Origin: Elusimicrobiota bacterium
GTDB taxonomy: Bacteria; Elusimicrobiota; Elusimicrobia; UBA1565; UBA9628
Length of the DNA stretch: 64,000 nucleotides
NCBI GenBank assembly: GCA_023213235.1
Contig: CP096137.1
Span: 135,587-199,586 of the forward strand
Reading direction: 5' to 3'
The notes under the pieces are model-generated. The model was not told the DNA's origin and searched no databases. It saw only the letters and a program-made list of their open reading frames with translations. The translations under genes were made by a program, and so were the position numbers. Each line of letters opens with the position of its first letter. The stretch's first letter is position 1. Positions 246-62,779 of this stretch are shown here, in pieces.

Positions 246-307
246 AAGGGGTCAGACCTTACACGTTTCACTTTTCGAAAAGTGAAACGTGTAAGGTCTG
301 ACCCCTT
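246..307. repeat. 62-bp perfect palindrome, GGGGTCAGACC variant
   Basis: Bases 246-307 form a perfect inverted repeat without a loop, centred between 276 and 277. The outer end reads AAGGGGTCAGACC and the inner part is a variable word (ACACGTTTCACTTTTC on the left arm). It fills the gap between two convergent genes, stop at 242 and stop at 318. It belongs to the same family as the repeats at 6458, 24310, 28559 and 62702, and could fold into a bidirectional terminator hairpin. Confidence 0.9.
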
Positions 308-317
308 TTCAACCTTT

Positions 318-1208
318 TCAATGCTTTCTTAGGCCGGTCGCGCGGCGCGCGGCCTGTTTGGGAGCGCCGTGGCGGCCCTCGGCCTCGGCGTAGGCGCGCG
401 TGAGCTCCGCGCCGAACAGCACGATCTGCGCCGAGTAGTACACCCAGACGAGCAGGACGACCAGTGAGCCGACCGCGCCGTAGGCGGAGCCCACGCTCGC
501 GCGGCCGAGGTAGAGGCCGATGCCGAGCTTGCCGAAGGTGAACAGCGCGCTCGTCCACAGGCCGCCGCGCAGCGCGTCCCGCCAAGGCAGGCGCGCGTCG
601 GGCAGGACCTTGAAGATCAGGCCGAAGAGCCCCGAGATCACGGCGAAGGACGCGGCGCTGTTGACGATCTGCCAGGCGGTCTCGCCTCCGGGCAGCGAGT
701 CCGCGGCGTAGCGTCCGGCCGCCGCGAGCGCGGCGGTCACGATCAGGGACGCGAGCAGGATGAAAGCGATGACGCCGACCATGCCGAAGGAGGTCAGGCG
801 GCGCCGCAAGGTGACGTGCCAGTCCGCGTTCTCCGCGAGGCGGACGCCCCAGATCACGTTGAGGGACTCCTGGAGCTGGCCGAACACGCCGGAGGCGCCC
901 ACGAGCAAGGTCACGACGCCGATGACGGTCGTGAAGAGTCCCGCGCGCGGCCGGGCCGCGGCGCCCTCGACGAGGGACGTGATCGCGGCGGCCGCGTTGT
1001 CGCCGGCGACGCCCGACAGCGCGGCGAGGAGCTCCTCGCTTCCGCGCGCGCCGAAGAAGACCCCGGCCAGGCCCATCGAGATGACGAGCAGCGGCGCGAT
1101 CGAGAAGACCGTGTAGTAGGCCAGAGCCGCGCCCATCATCGGAACGCGGTCTCGCGCGCTCGCCTTCAAGGCCGCGCGCACGACGGGAATCGCCGAGGGC
1201 AGGCTCAT
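318..1208 (-). CDS. YihY/virulence factor BrkB family membrane protein
   Basis: A 296-residue polytopic inner-membrane protein. It opens with an amphipathic stretch, then the family signature MMGAALAYYTVFSIAPLLVISMG (first helix, residues about 24-46), followed by about five more helices and a final helix containing LVVLLVWVYYSAQIVLFGAELT near residue 255. This is the YihY/BrkB fold, usual length 280-420 residues; its transport role is not settled, and the old name RNase BN is wrong. The ATG at 1208 has a TACACT -10 box six bases upstream and no leader. The C-terminus is a basic tail. Confident on family, not on function. Confidence 0.9.
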   Translation of the reverse strand: MSLPSAIPVVRAALKASARDRVPMMGAALAYYTVFSIAPLLVISMGLAGVFFGARGSEELLAALSGVAGDNAAAAITSLVEGAAARPRAGLFTTVIGVVTLLVGASGVFGQLQESLNVIWGVRLAENADWHVTLRRRLTSFGMVGVIAFILLASLIVTAALAAAGRYAADSLPGGETAWQIVNSAASFAVISGLFGLIFKVLPDARLPWRDALRGGLWTSALFTFGKLGIGLYLGRASVGSAYGAVGSLVVLLVWVYYSAQIVLFGAELTRAYAEAEGRHGAPKQAARRATGLRKH

Positions 1209-1214
1209 GGCCCC

Positions 1215-1220
1215 AGTGTA
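1215..1220 (-). promoter_or_regulatory. -10 box TACACT of the BrkB-family gene
   Basis: On the minus strand GGCTACACT precedes the ATG at 1208 with only six bases between the hexamer and the start codon, which predicts a leaderless transcript. The GC before the hexamer is an extended -10. Confidence 0.55.
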
Positions 1221-1275
1221 GCCTGGGGGAGGGCCCCGCCCATCTCGGACGGGTAACGCCCGCGTGCCGGCGGCG

Positions 1276-1977
1276 CTAGGCCTTGGGGGCGTTCTCGCCG
1301 AGGATGGCGATCTTCTGCCAGATCTTGCGCGAGAGGCCGGTGAAGAGATCCTCGGCCCCGTCGATGGCCTCGAGGACGACGGCGTCCTGCAGCCGGCGGC
1401 CGTAGATCGCGCCGATCTTGCCGAGCAGGGACAGCATCTCGCTCGAGTAGTCGAGGTAGCGGCCGAGCTCCCAGCGCGTCATCGAGCGCTTCGGCGACGA
1501 CTCGGTGCGCGGGGCCTCGCCGGAGACGGTCTCGGGGTCCTTGGTGAGCTGGTGCATGTCGATGACGTGCGCGAGCTCCTTGAGCTCGTGCACGAGGGCC
1601 AGCGCCTTGCGGCGGCGGATCGAGTCCTCGAGACGGGAGAGGGACAGGACGCCCGCGCCGAGCAGAAGGACGATGTTGGCCGCGGCGTCGACGCCTTGAA
1701 GGAGATCGGCGAGGCTCGCGAAGCCGGGCGCGGCGCTCACGCCGTGAAACGTCGCGGCCAGGCCCGCGAGCAGCGCGCCGGTCAGCAGCCAGACGGCGCC
1801 GCGAAGCGGCAGATGCGGGCGGGCGATCTCGCGGCCGCGCGCGTCGGCGCCCTCGGCGAGGACGACCAACGACGCGGCGATCTTCTCGAGGCCGGAGGCC
1901 GGGAAGCGCTCGCCGACGCGCCGGCGCAGGCGGGCGGCGGTGTCGACGACGTGGCGCGGCTCGAGGGGGACGTTCAT
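1276..1977 (-). CDS. Conserved two-helix membrane protein of unknown function
   Basis: A 233-residue protein I do not recognise. Residues 1-55 are soluble; residues about 57-80 and 92-115 are hydrophobic helices, and the remainder is a mostly helical, charged cytoplasmic domain with the stretch RRRKALALVHELKELAHVID. It looks like a cytoplasmic domain anchored by a helical hairpin. It lies alone between the BrkB gene and the nuclease-like gene on the same strand. A TAGCCT hexamer lies seven bases before the ATG at 1977, so it probably has its own leaderless promoter. Confidence 0.6.
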   Translation of the reverse strand: MNVPLEPRHVVDTAARLRRRVGERFPASGLEKIAASLVVLAEGADARGREIARPHLPLRGAVWLLTGALLAGLAATFHGVSAAPGFASLADLLQGVDAAANIVLLLGAGVLSLSRLEDSIRRRKALALVHELKELAHVIDMHQLTKDPETVSGEAPRTESSPKRSMTRWELGRYLDYSSEMLSLLGKIGAIYGRRLQDAVVLEAIDGAEDLFTGLSRKIWQKIAILGENAPKA

Positions 1978-1996
1978 CGCGGGAAGGCTAGCACTT

Positions 1997-2953
1997 TCAT
2001 TCCCACGCGGGAACCGCGGGCTTGGCGGCCCGGGCGAGCGCCGTGCGGGCGCGTTCCGCGTCGGCGGCCAGGCGCGACGCCTCGGCGCGGGCGCGGCGCG
2101 CCGCCCAGGCCCCGCGCCATGGCAGCCAGCCGGAGGCGCGGGAACGCGCGTCGGCGTCGGCGCGCGCCGCGTCGAGATAGTCGGCCGCGGCCGCGAGCGC
2201 CTCGAGCCGTCCGTCGGGCTCGGCGGCCGGCCGCGAGGAGAGCCACCGGGGCTCGAGGCGCGCCGCGAGCCCGAAGTGCGCCGATAGGGGAGGGGCGTCG
2301 TCGTCCTCGGCGCGGGCGCCCGTGAAGACGGCGCGCGCGGTCTCGGCGGGCGGGCGCGAGGAGTAGGGGATCAGCGCGTAGTCGACGCGCCGGTCCTCGA
2401 GCGTGCGCCCGCACATCTCGTCTCCGTGCGAGACGCACAGGTCGCGCGCGCCGAGCAGGTCGAGGAACAGCTCCGCCTCTTTGCCGTCGGACGCCGCCGC
2501 GAGGTCGCCGAGCAGGACGAACGCGCGGTCCTTCGACTGCGCGCGCACGAAGTCCGCCAGCGCGAGTAGCTGGCCCACGCGGCGCGGCGCGTCGGAGGGA
2601 TCGAGGCGGGCGGAGTACACGTCGGCGGCGCGGCCTCCGCCGGCGTCGAGGCCCGCGCGCAGGGCGCCGAAGCCGCCGCCGAGGTCGAGCGTCGCGCGGT
2701 CGAGGAGCGGAAGGCGGCTCGTCACGGCGAGGCCCAGAGAAGGCTCGTGCGCGCGCGCGGGGTGGCCGGCGGCGGCGCCGAGCGCCTCGGCGTCCTCGGG
2801 GCGCCACACCTCCTGAAACGCCGCGGCGCCGGGGTTCTCGGCCTTTATGCTCGCGGCGAGCGCCTCGCGGCGCGTCTGCCACCCCTGGTGCACGCGCCGC
2901 GGGCCGGCGACATTGAGCGTCAAGACCGAGAGGACGAACGCCGCCGCCTTCAT
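1997..2953 (-). CDS. Endonuclease/exonuclease/phosphatase-like secreted protein
   Basis: A 318-residue protein with an N-terminal hydrophobic segment (AAFVLSVLTLNVAG), so probably exported. The EEP fold is suggested by LTLNVAG near the start, FQEVW (catalytic Glu) near residue 48, VLLGDL (where the family has GDxN) near residue 153, and RRVDYALI plus SAHFGL near residues 200 and 230 (the family's D-H pair). The GDLAA in place of GDFN means the metal-binding Asn is missing, so activity is uncertain. About 85 Ala/Arg-rich residues follow the domain. The ATG at 2953 overlaps the anmK stop as ATGA, making it the third gene of an operon with the TIGR01777 protein and anmK. Confidence 0.65.
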   Translation of the reverse strand: MKAAAFVLSVLTLNVAGPRRVHQGWQTRREALAASIKAENPGAAAFQEVWRPEDAEALGAAAGHPARAHEPSLGLAVTSRLPLLDRATLDLGGGFGALRAGLDAGGGRAADVYSARLDPSDAPRRVGQLLALADFVRAQSKDRAFVLLGDLAAASDGKEAELFLDLLGARDLCVSHGDEMCGRTLEDRRVDYALIPYSSRPPAETARAVFTGARAEDDDAPPLSAHFGLAARLEPRWLSSRPAAEPDGRLEALAAAADYLDAARADADARSRASGWLPWRGAWAARRARAEASRLAADAERARTALARAAKPAVPAWE

Positions 2954-4029
2954 GCGGGGACGATTTTCCCGAGGATCCTGGGGCCGCGCGAGCCCGTCGC
3001 CGACGGCGCGTTGTTGGGCAGGCCGTCGAGCGCGCGCGCCGCGAGCCAGGCGAAGCACGCGGCCTCCTTGGCCATCGCGGGAATCTCCGTCAGCCGCACG
3101 GAGACCGGCGCGAACAGCCCGCGCAGGCTGCGCATCAGACGCGCGTTGCGCGCGCCGCCGCCCGAGACGACGACCTCGGCGAGCGGCCCCGGCGAGTTCT
3201 CGAGGATTCCGAGCCACAGCGAGCGCGCCGTCAGCTCCGAGAGCGTCGCCAACACGTCCGGCAGGTTCCGGCGCGTGACGCGCGGCAGGCGCGCGCCGAG
3301 GAAGTCGGGGCCGAACGTCGAGCGGTCGAGGGACTTGGGCGCGGGGCGCAGGAAATACGGGTGCGCGAGCAGGCGCGCGAGCAGGCGCTCGTCGGCGCGG
3401 CCGGCCGCGGCCAGGCGCCCTCCGTCGTCGAAGTCGCGCCGCCCGCCGGTGGCGCGGCGCACGGCCTCGTCCATGAGCGCGTTCCCCGGTCCGGTGTCGA
3501 GCGCCGCGCGGATCTTTCCGCCGCCGAGGATCGTCGCGTTCGAGATGCCGCCGATGTTGACCACGGCGCGAAGCGGGCCGCGCCCGTAGAGGAACAGGTC
3601 GAAGGCCGGGACGAGCGGCGCGCCCTGCCCGCCGGCGGCGATGTCGCGCGGGCGGAAGTCGGCGACGGTCGTGATCCCGGCGCGCTCGGCGATGACGGCG
3701 GGCTCGGCGATCTGCAGGGTGTTGCGCGGGGAGGCGTCGGGTCCGTGCCAGACGGTCTGTCCGTGGGAGCCGATCACCGTGGGCCGCGTCCCGCGGGCGA
3801 TCGCGACGGCCGCGGCCGCGAAGGACTCGCCGAGCTCCATGTTCAGGCGCGAGAGCTCCGCGACGGAAAGGCCGGGCGCGCCGAGCACGCGCTTCTTGAG
3901 CGCCGGGGCGTAAGGGTACGTGCGGTGGCGCAGGACCTCGGCGCCGGAGGCCGTCAGACGCACGAGCGCCGCGGTCACGCCGTCGGCGGAGGTGCCCGAC
4001 ATGAGCCCGACGGCCAGGCGGCTCTTCAT
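2950..4029 (-). CDS. anmK: Anhydro-N-acetylmuramic acid kinase
   Basis: A 359-residue enzyme matching AnmK throughout. AnmK opens the 1,6-anhydro ring of anhydro-N-acetylmuramic acid and phosphorylates it, recycling cell-wall sugars in the cytoplasm. The N-terminal phosphate-binding signature GLMSGTSADGV (family: GTSxDGxD) is at residues 8-18, GSHGQTVWH near residue 90, the ADFRPRDIAAGGQGAPLVP block near residue 125, and VNIGGISN near residue 160. The Asp that follows DGV in the family is Thr here (DGVTAAL), which deserves a check. Both neighbours overlap by four bases (ATGA), so it is translationally coupled in the operon TIGR01777-anmK-EEP. Confidence 0.93.
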   Translation of the reverse strand: MKSRLAVGLMSGTSADGVTAALVRLTASGAEVLRHRTYPYAPALKKRVLGAPGLSVAELSRLNMELGESFAAAAVAIARGTRPTVIGSHGQTVWHGPDASPRNTLQIAEPAVIAERAGITTVADFRPRDIAAGGQGAPLVPAFDLFLYGRGPLRAVVNIGGISNATILGGGKIRAALDTGPGNALMDEAVRRATGGRRDFDDGGRLAAAGRADERLLARLLAHPYFLRPAPKSLDRSTFGPDFLGARLPRVTRRNLPDVLATLSELTARSLWLGILENSPGPLAEVVVSGGGARNARLMRSLRGLFAPVSVRLTEIPAMAKEAACFAWLAARALDGLPNNAPSATGSRGPRILGKIVPA

Positions 4030-4935
4030 GCGACGAGGTCGGCCAGCGCGGCGTCGAGCGCCGGGTGGCGGAACTTGAAGCCCGCGTCGAGGAGCTTGCG
4101 CGGCACCGCGCGCTGGCCGTCGAGCAGCAAGGTCGACATCTCGCCGAGCGCCAGGCGCAGCGCGAAACCCGGCGCGGGGATCAGCGCGGGGCGGTGCAGC
4201 GCGCGGCCGAGCGCGCGCGCGAACTCCTTGCTCGTCGCGGCGCCGGGAGAGACGGCGTTGACGGGCCCCGAGATCGCGGAGTCGTCGATCGCGAACAGGA
4301 CCGCGCCGACGGCGTCGTCGCGGTGGATCCAGGGCATCGGCTGGCGGCCGGAGCCGAGCGGGCCGCCGAGGCCGAGCTTGAACGGCGTCAGCATCTTCGC
4401 GAGCGCCCCCCTCGCGCCCCAGCACGACGCCGAAGCGCAGCAGCACGGCGCGCACCTCGAGCTTTTCCGCGGCCCAGGCCTCGCGCTCCCACTGCCCGCA
4501 CAAGGCGGCCAGGAAGTCGGATCCCTGCGACGCGTCCTCAGCGCACTCGCCGTCGGGGTCGGCACCGTAGTAGCCGACGGCCGAGGCGTTGACGAGCGCC
4601 ATCGGCTTCTCCGCCGCGGCCCCGATCGCCTTGACGAGCGCGCGCGTGGGATCGACGCGGCTGCGGATGAGGGCGAGCTTGCGCTCCGGCGTCCACCGCC
4701 CGCCCGCGACGCTCTCGCCGGCGAGGTTGACGACGGCGTCGGCGCCGTCGACGGCCTGGACCCAGGGGCCGGGATCGCGCCCGTTCCACAGCCGGGCCTC
4801 GACGCGCCCGTCCCAGCGGCGCTGGACCTCGGCGGGCGCGCGCGTGAGCACGATCGCCTTGTCGCCGCGCTTGAGCAAAGCGTCGACGAGCGCCGTCCCG
4901 ACGAAGCCCGAGCCTCCCGCGATGACGACCTTCAT
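4026..4935 (-). CDS. TIGR01777 family NAD(P)-dependent oxidoreductase (one-base frameshift)
   Basis: An extended short-chain dehydrogenase/epimerase-like protein of about 302 residues. Residues 1-13 carry the nucleotide-binding Rossmann motif GGSGFVG; NASAVGYYG near residue 105 holds the family's Tyr; the C-terminal DUF1731 part ends with LLDAGFKFRHPALDAALADL. The reading frame breaks in a run of six C at 4406-4411: codons upstream read VVLGREGG, codons downstream resume as ALAKMLTPFKLGLGG in another frame. Removing one base restores the exact family sequence. It is the first gene of an operon with anmK; a CATAAT box lies six bases before its ATG. A paralogue lies at 34837-36179. The substrate of this family is unknown. 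Confidence 0.88.
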
Positions 4936-4941
4936 GGGGAG

Positions 4942-4947
4942 ATTATG
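4942..4947 (-). promoter_or_regulatory. -10 box CATAAT of the TIGR01777-anmK operon
   Basis: CATAAT on the minus strand ends six bases before the ATG at 4935; a leaderless start is predicted for this operon. Confidence 0.5.
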
Positions 4948-4952
4948 TCTTT

Positions 4953-6608
4953 TTAGGGGATCGTGTTCGCGGGCTGGCTCGCGCGCCAGGGGCGCCCGGC
5001 GATGGCGGCGCGCAGGGACGGGCGCAGGCGCGGGCGGCCGAGCCACGGCACGCCGGCCAGGCGGGGCGAGCGCATCAGGTGGTCGCTGCCCGCGATCACG
5101 TGCACGGAGGCGCCCGCGTCGGCGTCGCCGGCGGCGCGCGCGACGGCGTCGTCGAGGTCCTTGTTGCGCGCCTCGATGGCGATCTTCCACAGGTCGAGCC
5201 AGCCCTTGAAGGCGGTCCAGCCTGCGGCGGCCATCTTGCGGTAGTAGCTCCAGCCCCGCTCGTCCGAGTGCGCGAGGCGGTTGAGCTCGAGAAGGTCCAT
5301 GTGATGCTGCAGCAGAGGATGCTTCGACGCGTCGTAGTTGTAGGCGGTGTCCCAGCCGCGGACCTCGACGTCCTGGCCGTGGATGCCCTTGGCCTTGAGC
5401 GCCTCGGGATCGAGGCCGCGGTCGGCCAGGTACTCGAGGGCCTCCCAGCCGCGCATGCTCCAGCCGGTGTAGCCCTCGACGAGCACGATCATCGGCTTGC
5501 CGGGCTCGGCGTCTTCGACGATGCGGCGCATGTTCTCCTTGATCAGGCCGCCGTCGGTGTGGCGCTCCCCGTAGAGGAAGATCTTCGCGTCCGCGCGCTC
5601 CGCGGAGCCGGGCAGGACGAAGCCCTCCGCATAGGGGCTCTTCTTCTCGGCGCCGAGCGCGCGGCGGATCAGCGCGTCGAGAAGCGGGAGGCCGTGGCCC
5701 GGCGAGTCCTCGATCGGCTTCCAGCCGAACACCGAGCCGGGCTCGGTGCGCTGGACGTAGCCCTCGGGATCTTCGGGAGTCTCGTTCGGCGTGATCGCGG
5801 GGCGCTCCTCGGCGGGTTTCGCGGGCTCGACGGATTGCTCGACCTGCGAGGCGAAGAGGCGCGCGTCGAGGACGACCTCGTCGAGGCCTCCCTTCTCCGC
5901 GGCGAGCGCCATCTCCTGGTCGAACACCTGCCACACCGCGAGCGCGCGCGGCAGGTTCGGCTTGAGCGGCTCGTCCTTGGGAAGCAGGGCGCGCATGACG
6001 CGCGTGATCGCCAGGCCGACCTCGCGCGCGGCGGCGGTCGCGGCCGGCGTCGGGCCTTCGGGCGCGGTCTTCGCGGCGTCCTCGAGCAGGCCGGTGAAGT
6101 CGCCGCCCGTCATCGAACCGGCCTTGAGGCCTTTCGCCGAGCCGAGGTCGTCGGCGCGCGCCGCGAGCGAGCGCGCCGCGTCGAGCGCGAAGGAAATCGC
6201 GGGATCGGCAGGCTCGGCGGCGGAGGCCGCGGGAAGCGCGCCGGTGAGCAGCGCCTCGACGTCGCGGCCGGCGGAGGCCACGTCGCCGGACGTGGAATTC
6301 TTCTCGCCGATCGAGGCGGCGGCCTTCGCGACGCCGGCCGCCAGCGCGGCGACGCGCTCGGGGGCGGACGGGGCCGCTTTGACGACGGCGGGCGCGGGAA
6401 CGAGGGCGGGGGCCGGCGTGAGGAGCGGGACGACCGCCGACGGCGCGAGAACGAGGGCCGGTGTCAGGCGTTCCAAGGTTGCAAGGTTCTGCAGCTGTGG
6501 GACGCCTGACACCGGAGCCATCGACGCCGACGGGAGGGCCGCGGGTTTGACCGCGCGCTGCGCGGAGGCGGGCAGGGCCAGCCAGGCGGCGAGGACGAGG
6601 AGCCTCAT
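4953..6608 (-). CDS. Secreted protein with Pro/Ala linker and TraB/ChaN-like domain
   Basis: A 551-residue exported protein. Residues 1-17 are a signal peptide ending ALPASA-Q. Residues 18-110 are a Pro/Ala/Val-rich linker; part of it (PVSGVPQLQNLATLERLTP) is encoded by a palindromic repeat at 6458-6515. The C-terminal half contains FLYGERHTDGG near residue 345, IVLVEGYTGW about 30 residues later and VHVIAGSDHLM near residue 515. The spaced GERH, E and DH motifs recall the TraB/ChaN/Tiki superfamily of haem-binding or metalloprotease-like domains, but I cannot assign it firmly. A TACTTT box and the Shine-Dalgarno GAGGAG precede the ATG at 6608. The upstream gene on the same strand is also a secreted protein. 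Confidence 0.6.
   Translation of the reverse strand: MRLLVLAAWLALPASAQRAVKPAALPSASMAPVSGVPQLQNLATLERLTPALVLAPSAVVPLLTPAPALVPAPAVVKAAPSAPERVAALAAGVAKAAASIGEKNSTSGDVASAGRDVEALLTGALPAASAAEPADPAISFALDAARSLAARADDLGSAKGLKAGSMTGGDFTGLLEDAAKTAPEGPTPAATAAAREVGLAITRVMRALLPKDEPLKPNLPRALAVWQVFDQEMALAAEKGGLDEVVLDARLFASQVEQSVEPAKPAEERPAITPNETPEDPEGYVQRTEPGSVFGWKPIEDSPGHGLPLLDALIRRALGAEKKSPYAEGFVLPGSAERADAKIFLYGERHTDGGLIKENMRRIVEDAEPGKPMIVLVEGYTGWSMRGWEALEYLADRGLDPEALKAKGIHGQDVEVRGWDTAYNYDASKHPLLQHHMDLLELNRLAHSDERGWSYYRKMAAAGWTAFKGWLDLWKIAIEARNKDLDDAVARAAGDADAGASVHVIAGSDHLMRSPRLAGVPWLGRPRLRPSLRAAIAGRPWRASQPANTIP
6458..6515. repeat. GGTGTCAGGCG palindromic repeat inside a coding region
   Basis: CCGGTGTCAGGCGT at 6458-6471 is the exact inverse complement of ACGCCTGACACCGG at 6502-6515; pairing resumes with CCA/TGG inside. 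The interior contains the doubled word CAAGGTTGCAAGGTT. The outer 11 bases match the repeats at 24330 and 62703. It lies in frame in the linker of the secreted protein and introduces no stop. Confidence 0.88.
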
Positions 6609-6672
6609 CTCCTCATAAAGTAGCCCCGCCGCGCTCCGTCCGCCTGGGCCGTTCGGCCGCGGTCCGTGGGCC

Positions 6673-7334
6673 CTAGCGGGAGACGGAGACGAGGACCGAG
6701 CCGCCGTCGACGGGCTGGGGGCGCGCCAGGAGGCGAAGCGAAAGCCGGAGCACCCGGACTTGGAAGCCTCCGCGATCCAGACCATGCGCCCGTCGCCCCG
6801 GGCGATCGCGTCGAGCGTCCCCCGCGCGGTCGCGCCCTGATGCAGGATGACCTCGACGTTCAGGTAGCGCGCGTCCTCGCGCTCGCCGCCGAGCGAGGCC
6901 AGGCCCGCGTCGGCGGCCTTGGTCCAGCCCGCGGCGCGCAGAGCGAGCCAAGCGGCCACCCGCGCGGTACGGATCGGCAAGCGCGCCTTCGGCATCTTCT
7001 TGGCGAGCGTTCCGGCGCAGGCGCCCGGCGCGCGGATCGACAGGACGCCCTCTCGCATCTCGGCCAGGTGGCCCGGGTTGGCGGCGAGCACGCGGTCGAG
7101 CAGGTCGCCGACCGTGCGCCCGGCGACAGGCCCCTCGGGGGCGGACAGCGTCGAGCCCGGAGCGAGCACCGCGCCGCAGGGCAGGCGCGCCAGGCGGCAC
7201 AGCTCGAAGAGGTCGATCGCGGCGGTCTCGCGCGCGTCGTAGACGGGCCAGGTCCGGATCTTGTCGAGAGTCGCGTCGGAGGAGGCCCCGGCCGCCGGAG
7301 CGGCGAGGAGGACGGCGAGCGCCGCCGCGGTCAT
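6673..7334 (-). CDS. Secreted STN-like domain protein (one-base frameshift near the end)
   Basis: About 220 residues after correction. The signal peptide is MTAAALAVLLAAPAAGASS. Residues 35-95 (AIDLFELCRLARLPCGAVL, then AGRTVGDLLDRVLAANPGHLAEMREGVLSI) resemble a secretin/TonB short N-terminal (STN) fold, the small beta-alpha-beta module found in secretins and TonB receptors. Two conserved-looking Cys pairs may form disulfides. The frame breaks near 6729-6735: FRF is followed, in another frame, by LLARPQPVDGGSVLVSVSR and a stop at 6673; one added base gives 221 codons. Its ATG overlaps the stop of the upstream gene (7331) as ATGA, so the two are co-translated. Confidence 0.55.
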
Positions 7335-9136: not shown

Positions 9137-9137
9137 C

Positions 9138-9156
9138 ACCCGGAGTATAGCCCCGG
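9138..9156 (-). promoter_or_regulatory. 19-bp promoter element, copy 1
   Basis: On the minus strand the sequence is CCGGGGCTATACTCCGGGT, with TATACT seven bases before the ATG at 9136. The identical 19 bases occur at 9803-9821 before the next gene upstream. The CCGG ends make it a short imperfect dyad around the -10 box. Confidence 0.6.
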
Positions 9157-9169
9157 CTCCGCGCGGGCG

Positions 9170-9802: not shown

Positions 9803-9821
9803 ACCCGGAGTATAGCCCCGG
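9803..9821 (-). promoter_or_regulatory. 19-bp promoter element, copy 2
   Basis: Identical to 9138-9156. The TATACT box (9809-9814) ends six bases before the ATG at 9802. Confidence 0.6.
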
Positions 9822-16478: not shown

Positions 16479-16516
16479 TTATCCCCACACTGGTTGCGCA
16501 ACCAGTGTGGGGATAA
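16479..16516. repeat. 38-bp perfect palindrome between convergent genes
   Basis: Bases 16479-16516 are a loop-free perfect palindrome, TTATCCCCACACTGGTTG on the left arm, centred between 16497 and 16498. It fills the gap between the DksA-like stop (16457) and the dioxygenase-gene stop (16520), with AAGT/CTTTT flanks. It lacks the GGTGTCAGG end of the other family but occupies the same type of site, so a bidirectional terminator or a second palindrome family is likely. Confidence 0.85.
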
Positions 16517-24309: not shown

Positions 24310-24407
24310 GGTGTCAGGCCTTCGTTAGAGGGTGTCAGGCCTAACGATTAACGATTCTCCACGGGCGCGTGCCTAGGGAGAATCGTTAATCGTTAGGCCT
24401 GACACCC
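24310..24407. repeat. GGTGTCAGGCC palindromic repeat with an extra partial copy
   Basis: Arms 24330-24360 and 24377-24407 are 31-base perfect inverse complements around a 16-base loop. After the conserved GGTGTCAGGCC each arm holds the doubled word TAACGATTAACGAT. A further partial left end (GGTGTCAGGCCTTCGTTAG) lies at 24310-24328. The element fills the gap between the convergent pilC and uvrC stops, ending five bases before the uvrC stop. Confidence 0.92.
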
Positions 24408-28558: not shown

Positions 28559-28635
28559 GGTGTCAGGTTGTGCAATTGTGCAATTCTCTCCGGATCAGAC
28601 CACTGGAGAATTGCACAATTGCACAACCTGACACC
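28559..28635. repeat. GGTGTCAGGTT palindromic repeat
   Basis: Arms 28559-28588 and 28606-28635 are 30-base perfect inverse complements around a 17-base loop. The conserved end GGTGTCAGG is followed by the doubled word TTGTGCAATTGTGCAATT. It lies between the rpsT terminator and the holA stop, again a convergent junction. Confidence 0.92.
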
Positions 28636-52112: not shown

Positions 52113-52115
52113 GGC

Positions 52116-54206: not shown

Positions 54207-54215
54207 GATTCGCCT

Positions 54216-55605: not shown

Positions 55606-55611
55606 TTCCAG

Positions 55612-55637
55612 AGCCTATCAAATTTCTTTGCTAGAAT
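55612..55637. promoter_or_regulatory. Divergent promoters of the VCBS gene and the gene at 55645
   Basis: The 39-base gap holds TAGGCT on the minus strand (55617 to 55612, six bases before the ATG at 55605) and GCTAGAAT on the plus strand (hexamer 55632-55637, seven bases before the GTG at 55645). Confidence 0.55.
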
Positions 55638-55644
55638 CGCCGCC

Positions 55645-56908
55645 GTGGCCACCGTCTATCCGTCCGCCCGCACGGGCACCGCGCAGGACCTGATGCGCGT
55701 GGTGACGAAGGCCTATGAGAACCGCCTCGCGGCCGACGGAACCGTTCTTCCCCGCAAGACCGAGGCCCAGCGCCGCCTCCTCGAGCCCGTGACCCGCCTC
55801 GGCGGGATGATGATCGCCCTCGTCATGGAGCTCGTCCCGGCGGACTGGACCGTCGCCTTCCATAATAAGCTGTTCCTGGGGCTGGCGGGGGGCGCACCTA
55901 CCCGTTCGACGCCGAGGCCCCGGCCCTGCGCGCCGCGCGCGCGCTGGCGGAGAGGCTCGAGCGCGAGGCCGGGACCCCGCCGGCCCTGCTCGCCGCGATC
56001 TCGCACCCGCCCGTCATGGGGGACCTCGCGCACCTGAACTTCGAGCTCGTCCGCCACTCGACCTTGGCCCTGCGCGCGGTGCGCGGGCGCCCGTGCCGTC
56101 CGCGCCTCGTCGTGGCGATCGACCCCTTCGCGCTCGACACGATCACCGTCGCCGAGGAAGGCGTCTACGCCGGCTACATGGGGAATTTCCACCTCGGCAT
56201 CGACCGCCTGGCGCTCGGCCGCGGGCACCCCGGCCCCGCGATGTCCCCGCACACGCGCTGGGACCGCATGCCGCTGCGGCTGTTCCGCTGGCTCGGCGAA
56301 GGCCGCGAGGTGGGCATGGTGCTGTCCGGAGGCGTGCCCGCCACGGGCCGCGTGCTCTACGGCGTGCGCGAGTGGGCGCGACGCGCGCGGTCGCAAAGCC
56401 CTCTGCGCGCCCGGCCCGCCGAGGCGCTCGCGCGTCTGCGAGCCCACCCCGCGTTCCGCAAGTTCGAGTCCGCGGCGGCCGCGCACGTGCCGCTGCCGCG
56501 CGGCCCTGGCGCCTGCTCGAGGCCTGGCTGATGACGGCCTCCGCCTGCCTCCTGCCCGGCGAGACGGCCGAGACCGCCGCGCGCGTCGAGCTCGAGTGCC
56601 TCGACGTGCCGGCCGCCGCGCGCGAGTCCCTGCTCGCCGAGCTGCATCGCGACACGACGCGCGAGACGCCGTCTCGCCGGCGCCTGTTCCGCCTGCTCGT
56701 CGGACGCGCCGCGCGCCGCCGGCCGCTCCTCCTGCTGCCCATCGTCCACTCGTCCTCGCCGCTCGGCGTGACCGAGCGCGAGGCCTGGGGGATCGTGCGC
56801 GTCGGCCCCGGCCGCGTGCGCGTCGTGCGGGCCTCGGCGCCGGAGCGGGCCGAGGAGATGAGCTCCGACGAGCTCGCGGAGACCTTCGTCGAGGAGCACT
56901 TCGCGTGA
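55645..56908 (+). CDS. Unknown cytoplasmic protein (two frameshifts)
   Basis: About 421 residues after correction; I do not recognise the family. The N-terminal part is helical (TAQDLMRVVTKAYENRLAADG, LGGMMIALVMELVPADW); the centre has a strand-rich piece LVVAIDPFALDTITVAEEGVYAGYMGNFHLGIDRLALGRGHPGPAMSPH; the C-terminal half is VVHSSSPLGVTEREAWGIVRVGPG-type. One base is missing in each of the runs 55887-55892 and 56504-56506. GTG start, TAGAAT seven bases upstream. The stop overlaps the next start as GTGA, so it is expressed with the DDAH-like hydrolase. Confidence 0.6.
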
Positions 56909-57807
56909 GCGCCAACTTATACCGCACGATCTCCGACCTCAAGGGCTTCTCGCTGCGCAACTGCCCGCCGATGCCCGAGCCGTCGGGCGTGCTCATGTGC
57001 CCGCCGGACCACTTCCAGGTCTTGGCCGTCAAGAATCCCTACATGAGCCGGCACGTCGGCGCCGTCGACGTCGAGAAGGCGCGCCGGCAGTGGGACGAGC
57101 TCGTCGCCGCGTTCGAGAAGGCCGGCTGCCCCGTGCGCCTGGTCGAGGCCACGCCCGGGCTCGAGGACATGGTCTTCACCGCGAACTCCTCGCTCGCGGG
57201 CACGCGCCCCGACGGAGAGAAGGTCGCGCTGATTTCCTCGATGCGCCACGCCTCGCGCCGCCGCGAGACCGAGGCGTTCGAGGCCTGGTACGAGCGCAAC
57301 GGCTACCGCGTCGCGCGCCTGAAGTCCGGCGGCCACGAGACCTTCGAGGGCTCCGGCGACGCCGTGTGGCACCCGGGCAAGCGCCTGCTCTGGGGCGGCC
57401 ACGGCTTCCGCACCGATCCCGCGATGTTCGAGCAGGTCGCCGAGACGTTCAAGACCCCGGTCATCTTGCTCAAGCTCGTCAACGAGCGCTTCTACCACCT
57501 CGACACCTGCTTCTGCCCGCTGACGCCCGAGGCGGTCCTCGTCTACCCGTCGGCCTTCGACGCGGCCTCGCTCGAGCTCATCCTCAAGATCTTCCCGATC
57601 GTCGTCACCTGCTCCGAGGCCGACGCCGTCGCGCGCATGGCCTGCAACGCGGCCGTGTGGCGCTCGAAGACGGCGATCATCCAGAAGGGCGCGACCGTCG
57701 CCGTCGGCCACATGAAGGCGATGGGCCTCGACGTCGTCGAGGTCGACACCTCCGAGTTCGTGAAGTCGGGCGGCAGCGTGTACTGCATGAAGCAGTACCT
57801 CTTCTGA
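56905..57807 (+). CDS. Dimethylargininase/arginine-deiminase-family hydrolase
   Basis: A 300-residue protein of the amidinotransferase fold. The substrate-binding SSMRHASRRRETEAF near residue 113, the FEGSGDAVW (Glu/Asp) near 148, the catalytic His in FYHLDTCFCPL near 197 and the nucleophilic Cys in KSGGSVYCMKQYLF near the C-terminus form the Cys-His-Glu triad. DDAH-type proteins hydrolyse methylarginine or related guanidines; the ADI or ornithine-forming variant is possible. GTG start. Its TGA shares one base with the ATG of the following gene. Confidence 0.85.
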   Translation: MSANLYRTISDLKGFSLRNCPPMPEPSGVLMCPPDHFQVLAVKNPYMSRHVGAVDVEKARRQWDELVAAFEKAGCPVRLVEATPGLEDMVFTANSSLAGTRPDGEKVALISSMRHASRRRETEAFEAWYERNGYRVARLKSGGHETFEGSGDAVWHPGKRLLWGGHGFRTDPAMFEQVAETFKTPVILLKLVNERFYHLDTCFCPLTPEAVLVYPSAFDAASLELILKIFPIVVTCSEADAVARMACNAAVWRSKTAIIQKGATVAVGHMKAMGLDVVEVDTSEFVKSGGSVYCMKQYLF

Positions 57808-58697
57808 TGCGCCTCGCCGCGGCACTCCTGCTGGCCGCTCCGTGCGCGGCCCTGTCCCCCGAGACCGGCCTCTCGACGAAGACCGAGGCCGAGTTCGCGC
57901 GCATCGAGGCGTCCGCCTCCGCGAGCCCGACGGCGCGGCGCCTGCTCGCCGCGACGCGAGGCGTGCCGCGGCGCGAGGCGCGGCACACCGGCCTGCGCGA
58001 CCCGATCGTCGCGCGCGGCGGGGACAAGCCGGAGCTCGTCTTCGACGCGGCGCGCCTGGAGGGCGTGACGGAGATCGAGGCCGAGCTGCTCCTGATGCTC
58101 AACCTCGCCCGCGCCGAGCTGGCGTTCCCGATTCCCGTCGTCGAGGCCGAGCAGGCGGCGTGGCAGAAGGCCTTGCTCTTCGCCGCCGAGCGCGGCGCGC
58201 AGGACAAGGCGTTCGGCGAGAGGCTCGCCGAGCTCGTTCGCGTCCAGGGCGCCCGCGCGCGCTCCATCGAGCGCACGGCGCTGACGCCGAAGACGCCGTG
58301 GGAGCCGTCGGAGATTCCGGTGCTCGCGCTGCCGAACGCGTTCCTTGACCGCGCGGGCCTGCTGCTCCACGAGCTCGAGGCCGACCCGCAGCGCTTCTAC
58401 CGCACGCTCGAGACCGGCACGGCGTGGCCGCCGGGGACCGTGCGCCTCTCCGAGGTCGAGGACCTGTTCGCGCTGCGCGCCAAGGAACTCGCCGCGCTGA
58501 CGCGTCCGCCCGAGGGTCCCTACGCGACGCTCGGCGGCCGCCGCTATCCGGCGCCGCTCGTGCGCGCCGCGTTCCTGCTCAAGGGGACGGGCAAGGTCGA
58601 GTCGCTGCGGGAGTCGCTCGAGGCCTACGACACCGTCGGCCTCGCCTCCGCGCGCATCGCGATCAACCGCTGGCGCCGCGCGGTCCCGAAAAAGTGA
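57807..58697 (+). CDS. Secreted protein of unknown function
   Basis: A 296-residue protein. MRLAAALLLAAPCAALS is a signal peptide, with a possible lipobox variant (LAAPC). The rest is a helical, charged region with repeated Glu/Arg pairs (EAEFARIEASASASPTARRLLAATRG, LLLMLNLARAELAFPIPVVEAEQAAWQK). I see no known motif. It overlaps the previous gene by one base and the rlmM start by four, so the four genes from 55645 are one operon. Confidence 0.6.
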   Translation: MRLAAALLLAAPCAALSPETGLSTKTEAEFARIEASASASPTARRLLAATRGVPRREARHTGLRDPIVARGGDKPELVFDAARLEGVTEIEAELLLMLNLARAELAFPIPVVEAEQAAWQKALLFAAERGAQDKAFGERLAELVRVQGARARSIERTALTPKTPWEPSEIPVLALPNAFLDRAGLLLHELEADPQRFYRTLETGTAWPPGTVRLSEVEDLFALRAKELAALTRPPEGPYATLGGRRYPAPLVRAAFLLKGTGKVESLRESLEAYDTVGLASARIAINRWRRAVPKK

Positions 58698-59643
58698 ACC
58701 TCCACCTGTGTCAGACGGGCTACGAGGCCTTCCTCGTCAAGGAACTCGGCGCCGGCGCCAAGCGGCTCTCCGACGGGCTCGTCGAGGGCGGCGAGGCGAC
58801 GGAGACCTGCTTCGCGCATCTGACGCTCAAGGACCCCGTCCCCGCCGAGGGCAAGTCGCTCAACGCCTTGGCCGGGGCGATCGCGGACTTCTTCGGCGCG
58901 TCGGCCCGCGAGGAGCGCTTCGAGGGCCCGTGGCCGTTCTGCGTCGAGAGCGCGGCCGACCCCGGCCTCGGGCGCCGAGCGAAGACTTTGGCCGAGGAGA
59001 CGTTGGCGCGCGTGAAGTCGCGCATGGGACGCGTGGCCAAGCTGGCGGCGCCGGGGCGGCCCGGAAGCGGGCCGGCGCGCGGCCTGTTCATATACCTCGA
59101 GAGCGGCGAGCGCGCGCTCGTGACGCGCGAGGCGTTCGCCGGCGGGCAGAAGCGCATGGGCGACGACCCGCAGGCGCCGTCGCGCTCGTACCTCAAAGCG
59201 GAGGAAGCCTACGGCGTGCTGGGGCGGCAGCCGCTGGCCGGCGACACGGTCGTCGATCTCGGCGCGGCCCCCGGCGGCTGGAGCTACAGCGCGGCCAAGC
59301 GCGGCGCGGTCGTGATGGCCGTCGACAACGGCCCGCTCAAGGGCGGCGCCGTGCGCGACAACGTCCTGCACCGCGCCGAGGACGCGTTCAAGTTCGTCCC
59401 CGCGCAGCCCGTCGACTGGCTGTTCTGCGACATGGTCGAGGACCCCGACCGCATCGCGGACCTGCTCCAGGGCTGGCTCGAGCGCGGCTGGTGCCGCCGC
59501 TTCGTCGTGAACCTCAAGTTCGGGCGGCACGACCCGCTGCGCGTCCTCGATCGCGCGCGCGCCTTCGGCCCCGCTGCGCGATCCTGCGCGTGCGCCACCT
59601 CTACCACGACCGCGAGGAGCTCACCTCGTCGGAGAGGTCTTGA
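58694..59643 (+). CDS. rlmM: 23S rRNA C2498 2'-O-ribose methyltransferase RlmM (one-base frameshift)
   Basis: About 316 residues after correction. Its blocks line up with E. coli RlmM as I recall it: LHLCQTGYEAFLVKEL at the start, APSRSYLKAEEAYGVL near residue 160 (RSxxKxxEA), VVDLGAAPGGWSYSAAKRG near 190, VMAVDNGPLKGG, DWLFCDMVEDPDRIADLLQGWLERGWCRRFVVNLK near 250, and LYHDREELTS at the end. The Lys and Asp residues form the 2'-O-methyltransferase K-D-K-E set. One C is missing at 59569-59572. RlmM is best known from Gammaproteobacteria. GTG start. Confidence 0.85.
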
Positions 59644-59662
59644 AAGCGGGTCCGGGCGCGGC

Positions 59663-59668
59663 TATACT
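59663..59668 (+). promoter_or_regulatory. -10 box TATACT of the Lys-rich protein gene
   Basis: GGCTATACT ends six bases before the ATG at 59675. It is the same extended -10 as at 9144 and 9809. Confidence 0.6.
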
Positions 59669-59674
59669 AAAGCC

Positions 59675-60046
59675 ATGAGACAGCCACGATTTCTCCTCGC
59701 GTTCCTCGGCCTGCTGGGCCTCTCGATCATCCTGCCGTACGCTCCCGCCCGCGCCGACGACTCCCTCGTCCTCGAGGAGGGCGACAAGCCCGCCAAGAAG
59801 CCCGCGAAAAAGAAGAAGAAGGGCTACGACTACGACAAATCGAAGTACAAGTCGAAGATCGAGGAGCCCACGGGGTCTTACCGCTTCAACGAGAAGGGCG
59901 AGCCTCTCTACGGCGAGCCGAAGAAGAAGCCCGCCGCGAAGAAAAAGAAGAAGAGCGAGCCCCCGGAGGTCGATCCTCTCGCCCCCGAAGCCTGCGGCGG
60001 TGAGACGTCCTGCCTCGAGAAGAAGTCCGACGCCGACGCGCTGTAA
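59675..60046 (+). CDS. Small secreted Lys-rich protein
   Basis: A 123-residue protein with a signal peptide (RFLLAFLGLLGLSIILPYAPARA), then an acidic-basic mosaic with PAKKPAKKKKKGYDYDKSKYKSK and KKKPAAKKKKKSEPPEVDP tracts, and a C-terminal CGGETSCLEKK with two Cys. It is disordered-looking and cationic, so it may bind anionic surfaces such as LPS, peptidoglycan or DNA in the periplasm. No family recognised. Leaderless. Confidence 0.6.
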   Translation: MRQPRFLLAFLGLLGLSIILPYAPARADDSLVLEEGDKPAKKPAKKKKKGYDYDKSKYKSKIEEPTGSYRFNEKGEPLYGEPKKKPAAKKKKKSEPPEVDPLAPEACGGETSCLEKKSDADAL

Positions 60047-60052
60047 GGCGGC

Positions 60053-61585
60053 CTAAGCCGCCGGCGGTCCCGACTTCGGCAGACGCGCGACGAAGCGCGC
60101 CCCTTTCCCCGGCTCGCTCTCGACGCGGATCGAGCCGCCGTGCGCCTCGACGATGCCCTTGCAGATCGCCAGGCCGAGGCCCGTGCCCGGCGTCTTGCGC
60201 GTGATCGGGTCGCCCGCGCGGTAGAACTTCTCGAAGAGCCGCGCCTGGTCCTTCTTGGAGACGCCCGGCCCCTCGTCGAGGACTCCGAGCTCCACGTCGG
60301 CCCCCTGCGGGGCGGCGGCCAAGGTGACGGTCCCGCCCTCCGGCGTGTACTTGAGCGCGTTGCCGGCGAGGTTGACGAGCAGGCGATACAGCTGCTCGGG
60401 ATCGCCGCGCAGCGTCTCGGCGCCGGGGCGGACGTCGAGCGCGAAGCGGGCCTTGGACTTGTGCTCCTTGAAGAGGGCGGCGATCCGCGAGAACAGGCTC
60501 CGGACGTCGACGTCCGCGGGCTCCATGTCGATGCCGCCCGACTCGATGCGCGCGATGTCGAGGAAGTCGCCGACCATCTGCCCGAGGCGCGTCGACTCGT
60601 CGACCATGATCTGCAGGTACTCGGCCTTCTTGGCCGGGTCCAGCTCGTCGCCGAAATCGCGGATCGTCTCGGCGAAGCCTTTGATCGCGGTCAGAGGCGT
60701 GCGCAGCTCGTGGCTGACGAGCGCCGTGAACTCCGACTTCATGCGCTCGACCTCCTTGCGCCGCGTGATGTCGCGGAAGGAGCGCACGATCGCGAACGGG
60801 TGGCCGTCCTCGGCTTTGAGCAAGGTGAAGGCGCCCTCGAGCGCGATGCGGGTGCCGTCCTTGCGCAGGCGCTCGGTTTCCACCGAGAGCTTGTAGCCGC
60901 GCTGCAGCACTTCGGCGATCACGGATTTGATCTGCTCCATGCGCTCCGCGGGGATGAGGAAGTCTCCGCGCCGGCCGATCACCTCCTCGGGACGCCAGCC
61001 GAGCAAGTCGGCCGCCCCCTCGTTCCACGTCATGATCACGTGCTCGAGATCGGTCACGAAGATCGCCTCGGAGGACTGGTCGAGGACCGCGGCCGCGATC
61101 GCGCGGCGCTGGAGCGTGTCCTGGATCATGCGCGCGTTGCGCAGGTGACGCGCGATCTCGACGAGCGAGCCCTCGCGCTCGGCGTCGAGGGGCTCCGCGC
61201 TCAAGCGGCCGAAGACCACGCAGCCGGTGACGATCGCCTTTTCGGCGGTCAGGCGCATGAGAGGAGCGGCTTCCCAGCCGCGCTTGCCGTCGTCGCTGAC
61301 GACGATGCGCTTCTCCTCGAAGGCGCGCGCGAGCAGGGCCGCCTCCGCCGCGCGCGCGGAGTCGTCGCTCAGGCGCTTGTCGGCGTGGCGGTAGGCGGGG
61401 GCCGGAGCGCCGCGCTCGTCGACGATGTGCACCGCGATCGACTGCGCGCCCATCAGCGCCATCGCGGCGTGGCCGGCCTCGGCGATCGAGGCGGCGAACG
61501 GGCGGTCCCCGAACAGGGCCACCGACATCCTGTTGAGCAGCACGAGGCGCTGGTAGCGAAGCGCCATCAACGAGGAGTCGGTCAT
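60053..61585 (-). CDS. GAF-PAS sensor histidine kinase
   Basis: A 510-residue soluble-looking kinase without clear membrane helices. Residues 15-160 are a GAF-type domain; 165-280 a PAS domain (EAIFVTDLEHVIMTWNEGAADLLGW, then RSFRDITRRKEVE); HisKA with ALVSHELRTPLTAIKGF (His near 300); HATPase with NLAGNALKYTPEGGTVTL (N box), DEGPGVSKKDQARLFEKFYR (G1/F box) and GTGLGLAICKGIVEAHGG (G2 box). Starts at ATG 61585, with TAGAAT seven bases upstream. No regulator is adjacent; partners may be the regulators at 48587 or 53814. Confidence 0.93.
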   Translation of the reverse strand: MTDSSLMALRYQRLVLLNRMSVALFGDRPFAASIAEAGHAAMALMGAQSIAVHIVDERGAPAPAYRHADKRLSDDSARAAEAALLARAFEEKRIVVSDDGKRGWEAAPLMRLTAEKAIVTGCVVFGRLSAEPLDAEREGSLVEIARHLRNARMIQDTLQRRAIAAAVLDQSSEAIFVTDLEHVIMTWNEGAADLLGWRPEEVIGRRGDFLIPAERMEQIKSVIAEVLQRGYKLSVETERLRKDGTRIALEGAFTLLKAEDGHPFAIVRSFRDITRRKEVERMKSEFTALVSHELRTPLTAIKGFAETIRDFGDELDPAKKAEYLQIMVDESTRLGQMVGDFLDIARIESGGIDMEPADVDVRSLFSRIAALFKEHKSKARFALDVRPGAETLRGDPEQLYRLLVNLAGNALKYTPEGGTVTLAAAPQGADVELGVLDEGPGVSKKDQARLFEKFYRAGDPITRKTPGTGLGLAICKGIVEAHGGSIRVESEPGKGARFVARLPKSGPPAA

Positions 61586-61592
61586 CGGGCGT

Positions 61593-61604
61593 ATTCTATA
61601 TAAT
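61593..61604. promoter_or_regulatory. Overlapping divergent -10 boxes, histidine kinase and small membrane protein
   Basis: TAGAAT on the minus strand (61598 to 61593) lies seven bases before the kinase ATG at 61585. TATAAT on the plus strand (61599-61604) lies 13 bases before the ATG at 61618, which has GGGGGAA just upstream. Confidence 0.5.
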
Positions 61605-61617
61605 GCCGGGGGAACGC

Positions 61618-61851
61618 ATGAGATTCGAACGGATCCGCTGGCTGCTCTTGCCCGTCGCGGCGATCGCCGGGGCGCTCGCGTTCTACCGCGCGACGCCCGC
61701 GCGGCTGGCGACGGCCTGCGTGTGCGGCCTGGCGTGGTACGGCCTCTCGCGCGGCAAGATACACTCGCTCGACCGCGAGCGCTTCATGGGCGGCAAACTC
61801 GGCGCCGCGCTGCGCTACTGGAAGAAGAGGAGTTCGGCCGCGAACTTGTAG
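61618..61851 (+). CDS. Small membrane protein
   Basis: A 77-residue protein with two hydrophobic helices (WLLLPVAAIAGALAF, LATACVCGLAWYGLS) and a basic end. I start it at 61618 because of the SD-like GGGGGAA; the ATG at 61603 overlaps the -10. It overlaps the convergent gene end at 61815 by 37 bases, which is unusual, so the call is modest. Confidence 0.4.
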   Translation: MRFERIRWLLLPVAAIAGALAFYRATPARLATACVCGLAWYGLSRGKIHSLDRERFMGGKLGAALRYWKKRSSAANL

Positions 61852-62645
61852 TCCGGGTCGTCGAACGCGACGATCTTGGAGCCGACGATCCGCTTGCCCT
61901 GCTCGACGAGGTAGGCCGTGCGCTTGGCTAGACGCGCTTCGATGTCCTCGCGCGTCTTGGCGATGAAGCCGACGCAGCCGAGCTCGGCGCCCACGTAGAC
62001 GAGGATCCACGGCTTGGGCGTCTGCACGACCGTCACGCCGGACTTGGCGATCAGGCCCGGGTCGAGGTCGTCGCCGGGCTTGAGCACGCGCAGCTGCGTC
62101 TCCTTCTCGCGCGAGGCCTCGGGCTTGACGAGGTAGAGGATCGAGTAGGTCGGCAGCAGGTACTCGAGGTTGACGACGTTCGAGGCCACGGGCGTCAGGC
62201 CCGCCGCGCGCAGCGCGGACTGCGCGAGCGCCATGTTGGCGCGCAAGCCCGCATCGTCCTTCGGCGGGAACTGCATCGGATCGGCGCGAAAGGCGCGGAT
62301 GACGCGCCCGTCGGCGGTCTTGTACGGGAGGGTGAAGAGCTTGTCCTTCCATTCGGGAACGCCGGGCGTCACGCCCGCGGCGCGCAGCGCGGAGGACCAG
62401 CGCGCGGCGGCTTCCTCGAACTGCTCCTTCGTGTCGGCGTACCCGAACAGGACGTCCTTCCCGGCCTGCAGCAGCATGTGCCCGGATGTGATCACATCGG
62501 CCGGCACCGCCGCCGGCGCGGCGATCGCGGCGCGCTGCTCGTTCATCGCGCGCAGCTGGGCGGCGCTCGTGAACTCGAAGGCCGGAAGCCCGGTCTGGGC
62601 CGAGGCCGGAACGGCGAACAGGCACGCGAGGAGGAGGTGTCTCAT
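61815..62645 (-). CDS. Secreted protein of unknown function
   Basis: A 276-residue protein with signal peptide MRHLLLACLFAVPASAQ. The mature part starts with the helical TSAAQLRAMNEQRAAIAAP and continues with a mixed fold (LFGYADTKEQFEEAAARWSSAL, VEYLLPTYSILYLVKPEAS, and WILVYVGAELGCVGFIAKTREDIEARLAKRTAYL). No known motif. ATG at 62645 with GCTAGAAT seven bases upstream. A palindromic repeat separates it from the permease gene. Confidence 0.6.
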   Translation of the reverse strand: MRHLLLACLFAVPASAQTGLPAFEFTSAAQLRAMNEQRAAIAAPAAVPADVITSGHMLLQAGKDVLFGYADTKEQFEEAAARWSSALRAAGVTPGVPEWKDKLFTLPYKTADGRVIRAFRADPMQFPPKDDAGLRANMALAQSALRAAGLTPVASNVVNLEYLLPTYSILYLVKPEASREKETQLRVLKPGDDLDPGLIAKSGVTVVQTPKPWILVYVGAELGCVGFIAKTREDIEARLAKRTAYLVEQGKRIVGSKIVAFDDPDYKFAAELLFFQ

Positions 62646-62652
62646 ATCCGCG

Positions 62653-62658
62653 ATTCTA
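62653..62658 (-). promoter_or_regulatory. -10 box TAGAAT of the secreted-protein gene
   Basis: GCTAGAAT on the minus strand ends seven bases before the ATG at 62645. Confidence 0.55.
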
Positions 62659-62701
62659 GCATACGTATAGGCCAATGGGCCTATTGTCAGTATGGGACAT
62701 A

Positions 62702-62779
62702 TGGTGTCAGGCCTTGCACTCTTGCAAAGTCGTGCCGGCGCCCACGTCGGACTTTGCAAGAGTGCAAGGCCTGACACCA
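62702..62779. repeat. GGTGTCAGGCC palindromic repeat
   Basis: Arms 62702-62731 and 62750-62779 are 30-base perfect inverse complements around an 18-base loop. After GGTGTCAGGCC comes the near-doubled word TTGCACTCTTGCAAAG. It lies after the permease stop (62783, minus strand) and before the promoter of the next minus-strand gene, so this copy is not at a convergent junction. Confidence 0.92.

Follow-up and report, generated by a model that had tools for sequence, protein, structure and literature searches.

Five palindromes lie in a 64,000-nucleotide stretch of an Elusimicrobiota bacterium genome (contig CP096137.1, positions 135,587 to 199,586; the whole stretch is referred to as the window). 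They are probably miniature transposon copies, in which a short word written twice in tandem within the arm would be an address read by the C-terminal helix-turn-helix (HTH) domain of the matching Y1 tyrosine transposase.

The palindromes in the window

An inverted-repeat search of the window recovered all five palindromes that the initial annotation had placed there, at 243–310 (97% complementary), 6458–6515 (85% complementary over 26 nt), and 24330–24407, 28559–28635 and 62702–62779 (each 100% complementary). The claim that the arms pair perfectly held for four copies, including that at 246 (28/28 paired, bounded by GGGTCAG..CTGACCC), but not for the copy at 6458, which is decayed and pairs at 19 of 26 arm positions. 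Doubled words had been reported in four copies; TAACGAT twice, TTGTGCAA twice and TTGCACTC/TTGCAAAG were present in both arms of their respective copies, but CAAGGTT was doubled in one arm only. The elements, with arm classes defined below, are as follows.

248 to 305, no strand assigned: palindromic element of class F, GGGGTCAGACC plus TTACACG/TTTCACT, loopless.
6460 to 6513, no strand assigned: decayed copy in which one arm alone has CAAGGTT doubled, within the minus-strand open reading frame (ORF) 4953–7334.
24310 to 24330, plus strand: solo end fragment GGTGTCAGGCCTTCGTTAGAG, immediately preceding the class A element at 24331.
24331 to 24406, no strand assigned: palindromic element of class A, TAACGAT at 24342–24348 and 24349–24355 and again in the opposite arm.
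28559 to 28635, no strand assigned: palindromic element of class B, TTGTGCAA at 28568–28575 and 28576–28583.
62703 to 62778, no strand assigned: palindromic element of class C, TTGCACTC at 62714–62721 and TTGCAAAG at 62722–62729.

The ORF that contains the decayed element encodes 793 aa (G+C content at third codon positions,.93) and reads through 6460–6513 in frame (..APVSGVPQLQNLATLERLTP..). The element seems to have turned into coding sequence, for which a likeness can be drawn to the Rickettsia palindromes, elements turned coding, that are mentioned in the text of Di Nocera et al. (2013, PMC3733652).

Arm classes across the genome

The source genome (G000, one contig of 3,802,950 bases) was searched for the shared ends. 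The exact-end pattern GGTGTCAGG..CCTGACACC occurred at 32 places compared with 0 for a reversed control, and a relaxed pattern at 52 places compared with 1, so the palindromes are present beyond chance. Removing three overlapping duplicates from the relaxed set left 49 distinct palindromes, which is a lower bound, with a DNA search adding a diverged class A copy at 2483777. Of these, 47 passed a filter for arm pairing and were parsed; the other two, both of class F, were left out because one arm carries a one-base indel.

All but one of the parsed copies (46/47) fell into eight arm classes (A, 15 copies; B, 7; C, 7; D, 4; E, 1; F, 8; G, 2; H, 2), the sole unclassed copy being the window's own at 6458. 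Over their first 26 nt, arms had a mean identity of 92–100% within the five classes with at least four copies, and class F, with eight copies, showed no difference among its 16 arms. Loops, taken as the remainder after removing 28 nt per side, matched one another roughly no better than shuffled ones (similarity versus shuffled: A,.49/.47; C,.46/.41; D,.46/.48; F,.50/.48), with the exception of class B (.57/.44). Loop length was 17–19 nt in 31 of the 41 copies in these five classes, and the elements were mostly 73–78 bp. With arms fixed and loops nearly shuffle-like, it is therefore the loop, not the arm, that varies freely, much as in REPINs; like REPINs, these are dispersed, gene-less elements with two inverted ends and a variable spacer.

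The genome-wide set supports the earlier description of repetitive extragenic palindrome (REP)-like elements in which the ends are shared, a word is doubled and the arms pair. It overturns the accompanying proposal that the interior is made anew at each copy: the interiors are unrelated among the five copies in the window, but the arms recur genome-wide in eight classes. Copies with a fixed interior, the outcome that the annotation itself had named as refuting, were thus found as far as the arms are concerned, and only the loop is new in each copy.

The outward flanks were compared with the arms as possible target sites sharing the word; resemblance at p<0.05 was seen in 73% of the 30 flanks of class A, compared with 0–12% for the other classes. 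Beyond the common end, rough class-specific flank consensuses were CCTNTAACG for A, CGTTCGGTGCTA for B and CTTTTTC for F; these flanks are either a palindromic target or the outermost portion of the element itself.

Transposases with the same ends

No Y1 transposase lies in the window, as the initial annotation had noted: all eight genome matches to Y1_Tnp (PF01797) were outside it (contig 135587–199586). A profile built from six full-length proteins gave nine genome matches, and the seven listed were likewise outside. Those six proteins, L016–L021, all matched PF01797 above its cut-off, and the HUH motif, H60-F61-H62, was invariant in both transposase alignments. The Y1/IS200-type transposases with the same ends that the annotation suggested looking for were thus found elsewhere in the genome, since an ungapped search for terminal inverted repeats (TIRs) revealed that L016–L021 were all flanked by ends of the palindrome design. 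The match between word and palindrome class was exact or near for L016 (class D), L017 (A; G000 2541144–2541857, the transposase with the word of the element at 24331), L018 (F) and L019 (G), and partial for L020 (B; its ends were the nearest found to the element at 28559) and L021 (H). The right end of L018 (G000 3389630–3390370) and the arm of the element at 248 match without a difference across 26 nt.

Element ends begin with GGKGHC, and the GTAG-tagged hairpin of REPs was not found at them; the outer motifs (GGTGTCAG, GGGGTCAG, GGTGCCAG and GGGGACG) are wider than GGGG[AT][CG]A[CG], the motif carried by most terminal inverted repeats of the TIRYT family. Because the ends and words of the genome's own transposases match the palindrome classes, the palindromes appear to be REPIN-like and derived from TIRYT elements (TnpAREP subclass 2.1; discussed below). 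Judged by sequence, they are miniature relatives of L016–L021-type elements, and we infer that the transposases mobilize them in trans.

We propose that a full element comprises a Y1 (HUH) tyrosine transposase gene flanked by two inverted ends, each arranged as outer motif (GGKGHC.., ~9 nt), word and word, with left–right likeness lost past the second word; a miniature, non-autonomous copy would be two such ends face to face around a short free loop. The N-terminal Y1 domain would act on the fixed outer motif, the C-terminal HTH domain, with a DnaA domain IV fold, would bind the word, and the tandem words would allow one end to offer sites for both protomers of a dimer. If bound in this way, the word would be an address by which each transposase finds its own copies among coexisting families. 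The left end was 37–236 bp (often 60–75) upstream of the transposase start codon, so HTH binding could also repress the gene.

The position of the left end, and the likeness of several words to TTGAC(T/A), could also be taken as signs that the words act as a promoter for the transposase gene, in the form of TTGACA repeats resembling a −35 box. We consider this very improbable, as the same doubled word is found in the right end and in gene-less palindromes, and TAACGAT, TCCCACT, ATTCCTA and many other words are unlike a −35 box.

Presence and absence at orthologous sites

The palindromes were present at some and absent from other orthologous sites in congeners, as expected of mobile elements. 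The site at 62702 was empty in 5/5 readable congeners (6 given) and that at 246 in 1/1 (2 given). At 24330, 11 congeners were read: five were empty, two had a shared element of another word and four had other insertions. Of five congeners read at 28559, one was empty, three had elements with differing interiors and one had another palindrome.

The different-interior elements of three congeners (L268–L272, orthologous to 28559–28635) share a small spacer behind a terminator-like hairpin. The occurrence of different classes in one small spacer may mean that the gap between gene ends is a hotspot for insertion or, as a bolder reading, that the word has been replaced in situ. In the 24330 orthologues L274 and L275 (from G189 and G181), the two species' copies of the shared element show arm differences at corresponding positions on either side, which is consistent with arm-to-arm correction, and the long loop of this element holds a GC-rich terminator-like hairpin. 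Also at loci orthologous to 24330, L276, L277 and L281 have insertions of 200–400 bp that contain inverted repeats in their interior and GGCCCGGCGG close to one end and may represent another miniature element, and L284 (2146–2645), in one congener, has a gene pair for a YoeB-like toxin and its Phd/YefM antitoxin.

The doubled word at transposase ends

The doubled word is general: it extends beyond the source genome and often occurs in the ends of tyrosine transposases that have an HTH domain. We parsed 216 transposase loci, drawn from a phylum sample (109 of 294 genomes with a match) together with 80 named loci. An ungapped, composition-weighted TIR search gave credible ends at 161 loci; 122 of these had proteins of 226–400 aa, 104 were cleanly anchored at both ends (18 TIRs dropped) and 96 remained after removal of near-identical proteins. 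The word test took the best 7-nt window recurring at a lag of 6–10 nt. A 7/7 repeat was found in 40 of these 96 ends and a repeat of at least 6/7 in 74, compared with 2.0% and 14.7% in cross-end controls and 0.8% and 10.5% in shuffles. Lags of the 74 repeated words were 8 (40), 9 (19), 7 (12), 10 (2) and 6 (1); among GGGGACG-starting ends reaching 6/7, the lag was 8 in 29/31. Left and right ends were 80% identical at position 24 but 28% identical at position 29, where the second word ends; the inverted repeat therefore stops with that word.

A second set, unfiltered for HTH, comprised 77 loci from six genomes of named loci and from 193 genomes of the phylum of locus L031. With 34 loci dropped for want of a TIR, eight of an anchor and one of a parsed gene, 34 ends were left, 4 of them re-fetched loci of the first set. 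Seven had a 7/7 repeat and 17 at least 6/7 (control, 2.0% and 10.7%), so the doubled word is no peculiarity of the source genome.

C-terminal HTH domain and type of end

HTH status was assigned to the 216 loci by a profile of the C-terminal region; 60 loci had no first-pass TIR, and the other 156 were divided by type of end. The 116 with HTH comprised 47 with tandem words at both ends, 1 with a hairpin, 1 with both and 67 with neither; the 39 without HTH comprised 0 tandem, 25 hairpin and 14 neither; and one weak-HTH case had neither. Tandem and hairpin ends separated by HTH status with a Fisher p of 1e-18, for loci that are non-independent, many of the HTH-less ones being from Flavobacterium. 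The first TIR finder, which was gapped, often aligned GC-rich coding DNA and mis-set some TIRs, so its end-type counts, including this 156-locus division, are probably too low for tandem words; it was supplanted by the ungapped finder. In this sample, doubled words accompany a C-terminal HTH domain, and HTH-less transposases have hairpin ends or neither type.

Among L058–L099, mostly from Flavobacterium and relatives, many short HTH-less Y1 transposases were seen between near-perfect hairpins, for example TCCTGCAAGGTTTTCAAAACCTTGTAGG.

These end types also bear on a structural role for the doubled word, in which out-of-register pairing of arms in single strands would give a bulged hairpin for recognition and the letters of the word would matter little. 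The miniature copies are indeed near-perfect hairpins whose arms change together, and the REP transposase structure 4er8 was, according to its title, solved bound to a REP hairpin. In full elements, however, the arms are separated by a gene, single ends of HTH proteins scored as hairpins in 2/116 loci, and each class keeps its own word, which shifts as the HTH domain does; we regard a structural role as improbable.

For the fold of the tail, an AlphaFold model of L031, a Myxococcales element whose word is TTACAAG twice, was made from 14 sequences (predicted local distance difference test, pLDDT, 85; predicted template modelling score, pTM,.66). Foldseek matched it to DnaA DNA-binding domains (3pvp_B, with box DNA, TMt 0.90, root-mean-square deviation 1.6; 1j1v, TMt.83) and also to REP transposase 4er8 and IS608. 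The Foldseek table has no query range; we place the DnaA match in the C-terminal part because Bac_DnaA_C scored above its cut-off at residues 223–275. The modelled HTH tail of L031 thus matches the DnaA domain IV fold.

Which domain reads the word

Matched comparisons give moderate support to the HTH domain as the reader of the word, and our best reading is that each word is one predicted HTH site. The C-terminal region of the source genome's own proteins could be aligned across 103 proteins. The outer motif had a partial r of.35 with Y1 and.08 with HTH. In the 70 pairs whose Y1 domains were at least 75% identical, word similarity rose with HTH identity across bins, from.57 (n=9) through.63 (31),.76 (14) and.89 (11) to 1.00 (5), with mean Y1 identity ranging over.78–.88 between bins; the outer motif stayed at.91–.97 throughout. 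We then compared matched triples, with a common focal protein, Y1 identity within.03 and an HTH identity gap of at least.25. In 60 of 83 triples the partner with the nearer HTH had the nearer word, in 19 the farther and in 4 there was a tie; 19 of 24 focal proteins favoured HTH (p=1.6e-4, on the assumption that the focal proteins are independent, which is not strictly true). L209 is a case in point: it shares 86% Y1 identity and a like outer motif with L172, L213 and L223, at an HTH identity of 31–50%, and its word similarity to them is.44, the level of unrelated pairs.

Several results weigh against this reading. The global Mantel test over the 103 proteins did not single out HTH, the word tracking Y1 as well (partial r.13 for HTH given Y1,.20 for Y1 given HTH), and among close relatives the per-focal rank correlations of the word with HTH and with Y1 were not significantly different, the linker being similar. 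HTH-family matches in the source genome's own proteins (4/6) were all under curated Pfam cut-offs, with none in L017 and L018. Classes C and E had no partner transposase in the genome, none of those read there carrying the word of the element at 62703. The 6/7 word was missing in 22/96 first-set and 17/34 second-set ends, and 67/116 HTH loci had neither tandem words nor hairpins by first-pass TIRs. Named-genome representatives in the first set reached 6/7 in just 3/11, which indicates that the doubled word is strongest in the home phylum.

The word might instead be read by the Y1 domain or the linker, with the HTH domain used elsewhere, for example in gaining access to the replication fork, a role suggested by Quentin et al. 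(2018, PMC6006769). Across the full set of pairs, Y1 identity correlates with word similarity no less strongly than HTH identity does; by rank among relatives the two are about equal, and the linker too correlates with the word. We nevertheless hold this to be unlikely, as the word follows HTH once Y1 identity is matched, the word of L209 is unlike those of its Y1 relatives, and no tandem word was found in the 39 HTH-less proteins.

Relation to known systems

IS200/IS605 elements such as IS608 and ISDra2 have the same Y1 HUH fold as the present transposases, in which H60-F61-H62 is invariant, and are not known to have a C-terminal HTH domain. They recognize subterminal hairpins (PMC6006769), unlike the present elements. 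TIRYTs, or TIRtrons, are described in the text of PMC3733652 as having a Y1 tyrosine transposase gene between long TIRs, some GGGGWSAS, with some TIR families occurring as dispersed copies and dimers. The present elements share the Y1 gene, long TIRs and dispersed copies; the doubled word is absent from that text, the TIR sequences of its Figure 9 lying outside the comparison.

TnpAREP subclass 2.1 is reported in PMC6006769 to have a C-terminal Bac_DnaA_C, HTH_23 or HTH_28-like extension and TIRs replacing REPs. The present elements likewise have TIRs, and an HTH tail of this type was found in the relative L031. TIRYTs and subclass 2.1 proteins with HTH tails appear to be one family. The sections consulted note that DnaA binds 9-bp repeats and leave open whether the extension recognizes the ends; here, by comparison, a candidate site is named and linked to the domain. 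REPINs, in the account of Bertels and Rainey (2011, PMC3116915), are extragenic and have two inverted conserved ends and a less conserved spacer, in which length and pairing matter, with compensatory changes. The present palindromes resemble them in these respects. The REPIN end overlaps an imperfect palindrome (the REP), whereas here a single end is outer motif plus tandem word, without a hairpin.

No description of tandem words at such ends was found in the literature searched, which did not extend to Figure 9 of PMC3733652 or most subscription papers, and the novelty of the observation is uncertain for that reason. Among the matches listed in a search of paper texts for the end-motif letters, no title concerned bacterial transposons or repeats. 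PMC5442856, retrieved as a paper on RAYT and DnaA, was a false match, 'rayt' coming from an author name in its references. As far as searched, the two-word design and its tie to a DnaA-like reader are undescribed.

There is perhaps an even chance that, more broadly, a branch of HUH transposases has swapped hairpin recognition for a reader of the replication-initiator type, giving modular ends, words and HTH domains that diverge together, and many non-cross-reacting families per genome. If so, the nuclease would act on a constant portion of each end, and the DnaA-like domain on a doubled, fast-changing word. The doubled word is a concrete candidate for the target of the DnaA-like tail, which PMC6006769 leaves open, and is readable from the element end. 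If it is that target, the many natural pairs of small HTH domain and DNA word would be ready material for deriving a recognition code, and the family would show how end recognition can split one transposon family into many non-interfering ones. Some genomic palindromes would, as a class, be explained as miniature transposons.

Other observations in the window

An Rfam scan of the window found no family reaching gathering scores. At 16479–16516 there is a perfect 38-bp palindrome without a spacer, formed by TTATCCCCACACTGGTTGC and its complement, the start of which somewhat resembles a DnaA box.

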